Below, piece after piece: positions 1 to 1,913 of a stretch of 7,193 nucleotides of DNA (its first letter is position 1; each line of letters begins with the position of its first letter). Both the position numbers and the translations under genes were made by a program. The notes under the pieces are model-generated. The model ran no database searches. It had not been told where the DNA came from and saw only the letters and a list, made by a program, of their open reading frames with translations. This DNA is from Spirochaetaceae bacterium. Its GTDB lineage: Bacteria > Spirochaetota > Spirochaetia > SZUA-6 > RPPD01. The DNA is taken from positions 1 through 7,193 of the forward strand of contig RPPD01000106.1 of assembly GCA_003818675.1 (NCBI GenBank). The letters run 5' to 3'.

Positions 1-188
1 GTAGAGCGGGCATACCCGTCTGCCGCGTGTACAGCTGCCTGTTCGTGGCGCGTGAGCACCAGGTGGATGGACGGTTCGCTGTACAGAACATCAAAGAGAG
101 GGATGACGACACCCCCTGGAAAACCGAATACAGTATCTACTCCCTCGGCCTTCAGGGCTTCAACAATCATTGATGCGCCGCTTTTCAT
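1..188 (-). CDS. ilvB: Acetolactate synthase large subunit, N-terminal part (3' end beyond window)
   Basis: Only the first 62 codons are inside the window. Acetolactate (acetohydroxyacid) synthase is a cytoplasmic ThDP enzyme that condenses pyruvate with pyruvate or 2-oxobutyrate, the first common step of valine, leucine and isoleucine synthesis. The fragment shows the family N-terminus: [11 protein letters not shown] (residues 16-26), then [17 protein letters not shown] (45-61). Glu49 in RHEQ matches the glutamate that activates ThDP in this family. The start ATG at 188 is supported by a very good Shine-Dalgarno sequence, AGGAGGAAG (201-193), 4 nt upstream. Expression appears to be controlled by the leader peptide and attenuator immediately upstream. 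Other ThDP enzymes such as glyoxylate carboligase or the catabolic acetolactate synthase share this N-terminal fold, but the branched-chain leader peptide points firmly to the biosynthetic enzyme. Whether ilvN or ilvC follows cannot be seen. Confidence 0.93.
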
Positions 189-229
189 CAAACTTCCTCC
201 TGTAATACCCGGTTTTTTACTGTCAGCAT

Positions 230-263
230 AAAAAAGAAGCCGTTCCCCGGGGAGAACGGCTTC
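230..263 (-). terminator. Rho-independent terminator (attenuator) ahead of ilvB
   Basis: Read on the minus strand, GAAGCCGTTC (263-254) and GAACGGCTTC (245-236) form a perfect 10-bp stem around the 8-nt loop TCCCCGGG. Six T residues (235-230) follow immediately. This is a canonical intrinsic terminator. It sits between the leader peptide stop codon (284) and the ilvB start (188), so it would stop transcription before ilvB rather than after a gene. That placement is what makes it an attenuator. Confidence 0.9.
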
Positions 264-283
264 GTACCATCAAGGTCGGTAAC

Positions 284-385
284 CTATTCCTCCGGGCTTG
301 CGCGGTAGGGAAGGAGTACAATAATAATAATGCTTAAGAGCGAGTATATTGATCTTTCTGACCGAAGTCCCAAGCATTTATTCAT
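284..385 (-). CDS. Branched-chain amino acid leader peptide of the ilvB attenuator (33 aa)
   Basis: A 33-codon ORF starts at ATG 385 and ends with TAG (286-284). Its peptide contains Leu16-Leu17 and then Ile19-Ile20-Ile21-Ile22-Val23-Leu24-Leu25, encoded by ATT x4, GTA, CTC, CTT at 331-311. In total 12 of 33 residues are Ile, Leu or Val. Such runs are the hallmark of ilv/leu leader peptides, whose function is to stall the ribosome when charged Ile-, Val- or Leu-tRNA is scarce. The ORF lies directly between a promoter-like sequence and an intrinsic terminator preceding ilvB. Oddly, no clear Shine-Dalgarno sequence precedes the ATG; the upstream bases are an AT repeat, and transcription may begin only a few nt before it. 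An in-frame TAA upstream rules out a longer N-terminus. The product itself is not expected to have an enzymatic role. Confidence 0.85.
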   Translation of the reverse strand: MNKCLGLRSERSIYSLLSIIIIVLLPYRASPEE

Positions 386-393
386 ATATATAT

Positions 394-422
394 AATTAAT
401 CCCATATTATGGCTTTTGTCAA
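394..422 (-). promoter_or_regulatory. Probable sigma-70-type promoter for the ilvB leader
   Basis: A consensus -35 box TTGACA (422-417) is followed after 17 nt by TTAATT (399-394), a weak -10 (3 of 6 consensus bases) in a strongly AT-rich tract (TTAATTATATATAT). An alternative -10, CATAAT, lies too close to this -35. With the first choice, transcription would start around 386-388, almost at the leader ATG (385). The promoter sits in the 61-nt gap between the upstream gene's stop (447) and the leader peptide, so ilvB would be expressed independently of the cyclase operon. Confidence 0.45.
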
Positions 423-446
423 CCACATTTTTCCTTTGACATTGTT

Positions 447-1913
447 CTATTTGACAATGGTGACGCGATCAAAGGGCGTAACAGGGTATTTGTCAGTCAG
501 TTTTCTTTCAAGAGTCGCGTATATTTCCTTATCTGCAGAAATTATCCGCAGTATAGCCACTTCAGCGTTGTCTTCTCTTGCTATTGTCACACGGTCCCCT
601 GCATTTAACGTGTGGCCAAATTGCATAAAAAGCAGGATATGTGATGTATCTCTGGCGTCTATTACATATCCCTGGGTTCCGTTTAATGCCGCCAGGGTGT
701 TGATTGCATACATGTAATGCTGCTCCAGTTCACCTGTAGTTGCAAGCGGTTCTGGCTGTGGCGATGGAGTTGCAGTCAGGCGTGAGCGTTCCTGCTCGCG
801 TTGTTCAAGACGTCTGGACATTGAAGTATAGCTGTTAATTATGGTGACGCGGGCTGCGTCAATAAGCTTCAGGGAAGGCGGGATCGAATTCTTGTAATCG
901 ATATCCCTCAGTGTTTTGATTATAAGCGTAAACTCCTGCAGGATCTTGTCCAGAGCCATTTGTTCATCATCAGAAAGAAGTCCGTAACGTACGAAGGTAT
1001 CATCATTTGTCTTGTAGGCAGCGTCAGTGATGCTTCTGGATTGGGTTTCCTTTAGAATTGTGACAAGCTCGTTTGACTGGAAAATGGGATTGTATTTGAG
1101 GATGAGTTCCTCTATCTGCCTTTTGTAGTTGTTTTCCATGATATTGCGAAGCCCTGACTGGTGTTCCTTTAAAAAAACTATGTCACTGGCATAATTGGAC
1201 TGCAGTTCCCTTATCCGTTTTTCATAATAATCCATCCTTGTTTTCATCTCAGCGTCAAATGCCGCCCGCTGGCTTCCCAAAAGCCGTTCACGCCTGCGGA
1301 CCTCTTCAAGCTGGCGCTGGTCATACTTGTCAAGCTGTTCCCGGGCTTTATTTCGTGTTTCAAGGGCTTCCGTGATTTTGAGAGAATACTCGTCCTGGAT
1401 GCGCTGGATGTCCCTGCGTTCAATCCTTGACAGCTCATTTGATCTTATCGTGCGTTCCTCTGCAGAAACCCCGGACAGGTCCACGAGTTCCAATGCCCGT
1501 GTGGTACGGTCCCGGATGACCTGCAGGCGTGTGTCACGTTCTGATTTGAGATCTGCCATCTGTTGCGTGGAAGCTTCTATTTCCCGGTCGTAACGCTTGA
1601 TTGTATCCAGAAGATCCCTGAAGGCGAGGTATTCAAAATCGCTTATATTTATGGGTATGGAGGTTGAGTAGTACTGTATAAAAAAGGTGATCCCGACTGC
1701 GATTGCACCAAGTCCCAGGATGAAGAGCATGACCGTTATAAAGACCCTGGGGCTCCTGTTTTTTCTGGCTTTGGCCATTTCCTCTGATATGTCAAAGGTG
1801 TGCATGGCAGAATCAATTTCCTTCTGCAGGGATACGCGCAAAAACATCTTTTTGCTTTCAGCCTCAAGCTTTGTTCTATCCCGCGAATCTGTTATTTGCT
1901 TTCTAGTTTCCAT
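447..1913 (-). CDS. Membrane-anchored coiled-coil protein with C-terminal beta-rich domain, function unknown (488 aa)
   Basis: I do not recognise a named family. From the chosen start the protein has a charged N-terminal segment (1-56) ending in the basic KARKNRSPR, one hydrophobic membrane helix (about 57-80), a long Arg/Glu/Gln-rich coiled coil (about 95-275, broken near 143-152 at DLSGVSAEE), and a helical middle part (280-375). A Pro-rich linker (380-391) leads to a C-terminal domain (about 398-488) with short strands around GYVIDARD and GDRVTIARED, suggesting a small beta barrel. The positive-inside rule predicts that the coiled coil and C-terminus lie outside the cytoplasmic membrane. 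I chose ATG 1913 because it gives the short 22-nt overlap with the preceding cyclase gene and has GGGATGGA just upstream. An in-frame ATG at 2003 would add 30 residues wholly inside the cyclase gene, and another lies at 1937. The overlap implies coupled translation and a related role. No signal peptidase site is evident. Confidence 0.85.
   Translation of the reverse strand: METRKQITDSRDRTKLEAESKKMFLRVSLQKEIDSAMHTFDISEEMAKARKNRSPRVFITVMLFILGLGAIAVGITFFIQYYSTSIPINISDFEYLAFRDLLDTIKRYDREIEASTQQMADLKSERDTRLQVIRDRTTRALELVDLSGVSAEERTIRSNELSRIERRDIQRIQDEYSLKITEALETRNKAREQLDKYDQRQLEEVRRRERLLGSQRAAFDAEMKTRMDYYEKRIRELQSNYASDIVFLKEHQSGLRNIMENNYKRQIEELILKYNPIFQSNELVTILKETQSRSITDAAYKTNDDTFVRYGLLSDDEQMALDKILQEFTLIIKTLRDIDYKNSIPPSLKLIDAARVTIINSYTSMSRRLEQREQERSRLTATPSPQPEPLATTGELEQHYMYAINTLAALNGTQGYVIDARDTSHILLFMQFGHTLNAGDRVTIAREDNAEVAILRIISADKEIYATLERKLTDKYPVTPFDRVTIVK

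Follow-up and report, generated by a model that had tools for sequence, protein, structure and literature searches.

The locus raises the question of whether the short stretch in front of an ilvB gene, in DNA of apparent spirochaete origin, encodes a ribosome-mediated transcription attenuator, in which a ribosome translating a leader peptide rich in branched-chain amino acids (BCAA) would determine whether RNA polymerase reaches the gene. The elements in question lie on the minus strand of the window, as we call the whole 7,193-nucleotide stretch of DNA that was analyzed. Our analysis argues, with a probability of about 90%, that a conserved attenuator of this kind controls ilvB and also ilvN and leuA, the last two by analogy with two relatives (L002 and L005) in which these genes come after ilvB. 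The window is a new and well-supported spirochaete member of a known mechanism and, together with about 30 comparative cases, extends a textbook mode of control to spirochaete lineages.

Organization of the ilvB leader

Read directly on the minus strand, the elements follow one another in the order leader ORF (385-284), IIIIVLL run (331-311), terminator (263-236) with its T6 tract, and ilvB (from 188). The leader ORF comprises 33 codons and a stop codon, begins with the ATG at 385, ends with the TAG at 286-284, and encodes the peptide MNKCLGLRSERSIYSLLSIIIIVLLPYRASPEE. As the preliminary description had claimed, it contains seven straight branched-chain codons, ATT ATT ATT ATT GTA CTC CTT, at 331-311. 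Past its stop codon, both the scan and folding give an intrinsic terminator hairpin at 263-236, followed by six T at 235-230. This hairpin had been noticed before together with its T tract, and only the stem length of 10 bp then given has to be corrected: positions 263-252 pair with 247-236 around a 4-nt loop (251-248), giving 12 bp with one G-U pair among them. The ribosome site and the gene are likewise found where they had been placed, with the Shine-Dalgarno sequence AGGAGG at 201-196 and the ATG of ilvB at 188. The first 62 codons of ilvB (188-1), which then continues off the window, match PF02776 and, as best NCBIfam match, TIGR00118, whose score of 80.9 bits stays below the whole-protein cut-off because the window holds just 62 residues of the protein.

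On the upstream side, the sequence TTGACA, read directly at 422-417, is a candidate -35 element for leader transcription. Two weak -10 candidates within 399-392, TTAATT (399-394, with a 17-nt spacer) or AATTAT (397-392, with a 19-nt spacer), were picked by consensus match alone and are absent from the promoter-scan listing.

Among 2,000 dinucleotide shuffles of the 400 nt upstream of ilvB in the window, one yielded a leader plus terminator by the criterion of the survey described below, and two contained an ORF of 10 to 60 aa with at least seven consecutive I, L, or V residues. The whole leader does not fold with unusual stability in the window (z of -1.6, with 12 of 200 shuffles equal or better), and we therefore do not take structure alone as proof.

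Host and genomic neighborhood

A spirochaete host had been suggested from the neighboring genes, and protein comparisons agree with this. Among the matches listed for the 62-residue IlvB fragment, two MAGs named Spirochaetes bacterium reach 78% (L002) and 68% (L005) identity and L001 reaches 75%; other phyla rank high too, with 70% for L003 (Neomarinimicrobiota) and 67% for L004 (Paenibacillus). The neighboring radical SAM protein, which matches TIGR03960/TIGR03936, is 49% identical to its counterpart in G002 (the genome of L005) and 43 to 47% identical to those of the order of G376. Identities are 39 to 44% in four of six genomes of the G373 group and 35 to 38% in seven other relatives, and the match in G001 is weak. 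On the strength of these identities, and not of a tree, we take the window to be spirochaetal, with G002 and the order of G376 as its probable nearest relatives.

The leader is preceded on the same strand by a 518-aa ORF (2003-447), which has no Pfam or NCBIfam match and for which distant matches were found in 3 of 11 relatives searched. An inverted repeat, CATTGT-CAAATAGA-ACAATG (window 437-456), overlaps the stop of this gene and lies ~15 nt upstream of the leader's -35 candidate; it could be an operator or a product of chance. In L001, the 3' end of a group II intron (RF00029; L001:1926-2006), whose 5' part is lost at the contig end, lies directly before ilvB, at the place where relatives carry the attenuator.

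Recurrence of the leader in related genomes

The survey of ilvB upstream regions covered a sample, not a census, made up of 100 regions and further chosen loci from 303 genomes with a match, after removal of two upstream stretches shorter than 150 nt. The criterion, which was fixed only after the first cases were known, called for an ORF spanning 10 to 60 codons and scoring 4 or more for BCAA within at most 400 nt of upstream sequence and, from -3 to 90 nt past its stop, a terminator-like stem of at least six pairs with at least six T in 8. Relatives are labeled Spirochaetota according to the phylum, order, and family groupings around G001, G004, G373, and G376, with L001 included.

Leader and terminator were found together in 22 of 258 regions versus a mean of 0.2 in ten dinucleotide-shuffled sets (0 or 1 in each). 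In this set of 258, the spirochaete positives were confined to three groups near the ilvB type of the window, plus one paralogue. Enlarging the set by 16 loci of the family of G373 brought the count to 29 of 274, or 27 of 199 Spirochaetota including the window, with seven further positives in that family, all with diverged ilvB; hence, the counts of the survey are lower bounds. Outside the spirochaetes, the positives are L052 and L067, deltaproteobacterial MAGs in which leaders with BCAA runs and terminators also precede ilvB. Within the order of G376, all six genomes with a match carry the element (7/8 places, L281 being negative), as do 13/21 genomes with a match (13/26 places) in the family of G373. 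By the criterion, five of the eight matching genomes of the order of G004 have it, and by eye all eight do, three of these being weaker or long-looped. Most of the Spirochaetota regions examined, 172 of 199, lack the element by the criterion. Thirteen spirochaete rows with an IlvB identity of at least 65% are negative, among them L001 and L115, the latter a curated leader that is missed because its terminator loop is long.

The preliminary description had staked its reading in part on conservation in close relatives, and the sequence half of that test came out in its favor, since BCAA run and terminator recur. The Ile/Val/Leu runs are kept while the remaining leader residues and the terminator sequence diverge, and the distance from stop codon to terminator is 16 to 24 nt in all 15 close members. 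Changes between close leaders number 47, 45, and 80 at codon positions 1, 2, and 3, which is only mildly coding-like; across 10 pairs that are not independent of one another, 53 codon changes are synonymous and 69 non-synonymous. Curated leaders are 16 to 35 codons long, and gene callers may therefore miss such leaders.

Candidate antiterminator pairing

The curated set (n = 24) consists of the window, L067, and 22 Spirochaetota relatives; it includes three loci that fail the uniform criterion, namely L115, whose terminator was set by hand, and L130 and L131, whose runs are weak. For each locus, the final 27 nt of the ORF together with the spacer were paired with the 5' arm and loop of the terminator, and the result was compared with 500 mononucleotide shuffles. 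This pairing reaches P ≤ 0.05 in a majority of the loci (14/24), and the values lie above this in the other 10. In a swap control, no leader of another group paired as well in 8/24 loci, and in several loci half or more did. Pairing begins 6 to 13 nt before the stop codon in 18/24 loci against 4.7 expected, this range having been chosen after the pairing test. Since the loci are related and both criterion and range were set post hoc, the P values overstate the evidence. Pairings of this kind include GCGGGAU with AUCCCGC in L002, AAGGAAGAA with UUCUUCCUU in L116, and GCAGGGAGA with UCUCCCUGC in L280, and the pairing in L067 spans 14 bp, G-U pairs included.

In the window, the 5' strand of the candidate antiterminator would be formed by the last leader codons and the stop (294-281), at a position similar to that in relatives, and the 3' strand by the loop together with a portion of the terminator 5' arm (261-248). 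The resulting bulged helix (CGG.GGA...GGUU with UCCCCG and AGCC) folds at -15.1 kcal/mol before the terminator 3' arm exists, versus -19.0 kcal/mol for the terminator. This helix is a candidate for the competing structures that the preliminary description had recommended looking for, but in the window alone it does not outperform shuffled sequences (P = 0.35), and among 15 leaders of other groups, 8 pair with the window's terminator as well as or better than its own leader. The case for an antiterminator therefore rests on the relatives. Between the end of the IIIIVLL run and the stop codon lie 24 nt, and a ribosome stalled in the run would leave the antiterminator strand open, while one at the stop codon would cover it.

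Initiation on the leader ORF

A TTGAC box begins 35 to 40 nt upstream of the leader ATG in 15/15 loci of the two groups nearest to the window (37 nt in the window itself), with weak -10 matches (3 to 5 of 6 positions, spacers of 15 to 19 nt). The combined length of a -35 box, a 17-nt spacer, a -10 box, and seven further nucleotides is ~36 nt, and the leader ORFs of these groups, including that of the window, are therefore probably leaderless. None of the scored Shine-Dalgarno motifs occurs in any of these 15 leaders; L005 has an unscored AGGG near its ATG. The order of G004 presents a distance from TTGAC to ATG of 47 to 86 nt in 7/8 loci where TTGAC was found and an AGGA at most 20 nt from the leader start in 8/8. 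The spacing of 35 to 40 nt suggests that ribosomes initiate on leaderless transcripts close behind the transcribing polymerase, which bears on the coupling of transcription and translation.

Proposed mechanism and alternatives

We propose a model in which transcription would start a few nucleotides from the leader AUG, so that a ribosome would load on a nearly leaderless RNA and trail RNA polymerase. With Ile, Val, and Leu tRNAs charged, the ribosome would translate through to the stop codon and mask the antiterminator strand (294-281), the hairpin at 263-236 would form, and transcription would end near position 230. With these tRNAs scarce, the ribosome would instead stall within the IIIIVLL run, leaving strand 294-281 free to capture the terminator 5' arm, and the polymerase would continue into ilvB. 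The ORF, codon run, terminator, target gene, their conservation, and, in most of the relatives tested, the pairing of leader end and terminator arm are observed; the promoter and start site, leader translation, termination, the response to supply, and the relative weight of the three amino acids are predicted. The reading of the locus as a ribosome-mediated attenuator, put forward in the preliminary description, is supported by the conserved run and terminator and by the antiterminator seen in relatives.

The hairpin might do no more than terminate transcription of the upstream 518-aa gene, with the ORF between that gene and ilvB being a chance frame. That gene, encoded by the same strand, does end at 447, and no further terminator was listed by the scan ahead of the leader; however, it was matched in few of the relatives searched (3/11), while leader and terminator recur, and both the stop-to-terminator spacing of the close members (16 to 24 nt in 15/15) and the single positive among 2,000 shuffles of the window argue against a chance ORF, which makes such an origin highly improbable. 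We consider it more improbable still that the terminator is under the control of a ligand- or tRNA-binding RNA (T-box, ppGpp, or other riboswitch), with the ORF being incidental. No Rfam family reaches the gathering score in the window or in seven relatives, and two weak unrelated matches are all that Rfam returns at E ≤ 5 for window positions 150-450. Control of ilvB in Firmicutes is attributed to a ppGpp riboswitch (PMC10272879), yet the leader RNA studied here varies from group to group, with the type of codon run preserved.

A further alternative keeps the leader peptide and dispenses with its specificity: termination would be constitutive and partial, leader translation would uncouple the terminator, and branched-chain amino acids would not be sensed as such. 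The weakness of the window's antiterminator on its own is compatible with this, as is the report, in a section of PMC1262725, that altering candidate codons of the Streptomyces coelicolor ilvB leader was without effect. Such unspecific control is nevertheless very unlikely here, considering that I/V/L runs are retained in otherwise dissimilar peptides and that, in some of the same genomes, his genes are preceded by His codons and trp genes by Trp codons.

Relation to known attenuators

The gammaproteobacterial attenuators of ilv, leu, his, and trp operons combine a run of cognate codons, a stop codon near the antiterminator strand, and a terminator. The window shares these features, its antiterminator strand being a candidate, and differs in that its initiation appears leaderless and in that no separate strand-1 hairpin is demonstrated in it. 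Leaderless polycysteine attenuators reportedly exist in mycobacteria, and a comparative survey of attenuators by Lopatovskaya et al. (2010) may include spirochaete cases.

The actinobacterial ilvB attenuators (Streptomyces lividans ilvL, Corynebacterium ilvBNC, and Mycobacterium tuberculosis ilvB1) have in common with the window a BCAA-rich leader ORF, a terminator, and the target gene. Compared by description, the window belongs to another phylum and its BCAA run is longer, with four ATT among its seven codons. Leaderless leader ORFs, that of ilvL included, are reported for S. lividans in a section of PMC8079986, and in M. tuberculosis the antiterminator is reported to be masked by a ribosome positioned on the stop codon (PMC13236596). 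Leaderless genes were found in 6 of the 18 Spirochaetes genomes listed in a portion of PMC3160421, at an average of 3.9% of genes.

Leader-peptide attenuation of ilvB had been expected to be little or not described in spirochaetes. This has to be qualified for Leptospira, for which BCAA uORFs upstream of ilvB were proposed in 2023 (PMC10272879), the Leptospira motif being the sole spirochaete case found in the open-access literature, to which our search was largely confined, subscription papers lying mostly outside its scope. Passages of two papers trace this motif, WRC-14-1, from a weak riboswitch candidate, as first listed (PMC8632094), to its reinterpretation as a BCAA-rich uORF (PMC10272879). 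It shares phylum and gene with the window and, compared by description, differs in being represented seven times and in Leptospira only, in being rich in threonine as well as BCAA with at least three consecutive valines, and in lying ~70 nt before ilvB (PMC10272879). The Leptospira uORF was not recovered among the sampled ilvB upstream regions, whose rows carry no genus labels. The same paper reads the ilvB-OMG motif, an ilvB leader of various phyla, as BCAA uORFs; the window gives no match of that kind in Rfam 15, which may lack the motif. In a passage of PMC2965389, leader peptides are described as known from Proteobacteria and Actinobacteria only, with Firmicutes then added.

Leaders of other operons and of additional ilvB copies

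In the G373 group, leaders with three or four consecutive His codons and a terminator precede hisG in all five genomes with a match (L292 to L296), for example MGSKALHHHHGHHRREAGAL; a sixth genome gave no hisG match. The distance from TTGAC to ATG is 40 nt in four of these five, the ATG having been chosen among in-frame starts, and these four leaders appear leaderless. The nine hisG loci over the cut-off in the groups of G004 and G376 (L283 to L291) all lacked a His run within at most ~1.5 kb of upstream sequence, and hisG may not head its operon there; two of the nine returned ORFs with scattered His.

Trp-rich leaders with a terminator were found before trpE in 3 of 13 strong trpE-like loci, in G002 (GWWWF; L313:1248-1307), G030 (WCWW; L310:1170-1247), and G004 (WSW; L314). 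For two of the 13 loci (L309 and L311), which lack a fixed trpE start, the scan took in all of the upstream sequence. A 50-codon ORF in L306 with two separate Trp codons overlaps a terminator and was discounted. At the stop codon of the L310 leader, UUGAUAAACCG pairs with the terminator arm (P = 0.006), and his and trp leaders combined give a pairing P value of at most 0.05 in 4/8. The leader codons thus follow the pathway, with His leaders before hisG and Trp leaders before trpE, partly in the same genomes.

We lean toward a broader view in which leaderless ribosome-mediated attenuation would be general for ilv, his, and trp operons in several spirochaete lineages. Each operon, and even each of two ilvB-like genes in one genome, would have its own leader, whose last codons would serve as the antiterminator strand and would have been rebuilt repeatedly as terminators diverged.

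L282, an additional ilvB-like gene of G447, has its own, probably leaderless leader with the run LLLVVVVLVVV and a different terminator, and a third copy (L281) has none. A separate leader family precedes diverged ilvB genes in L324, L325, L326, L328, and L330, with peptides ending in [HR]HxxHxDFxxxxGG and terminators close to AGCCCTGCAGTGRAATCACTGCAGGGCT; in L325 and L326, UGAUUUCACUG inside the leader ORF is by eye complementary to the terminator.
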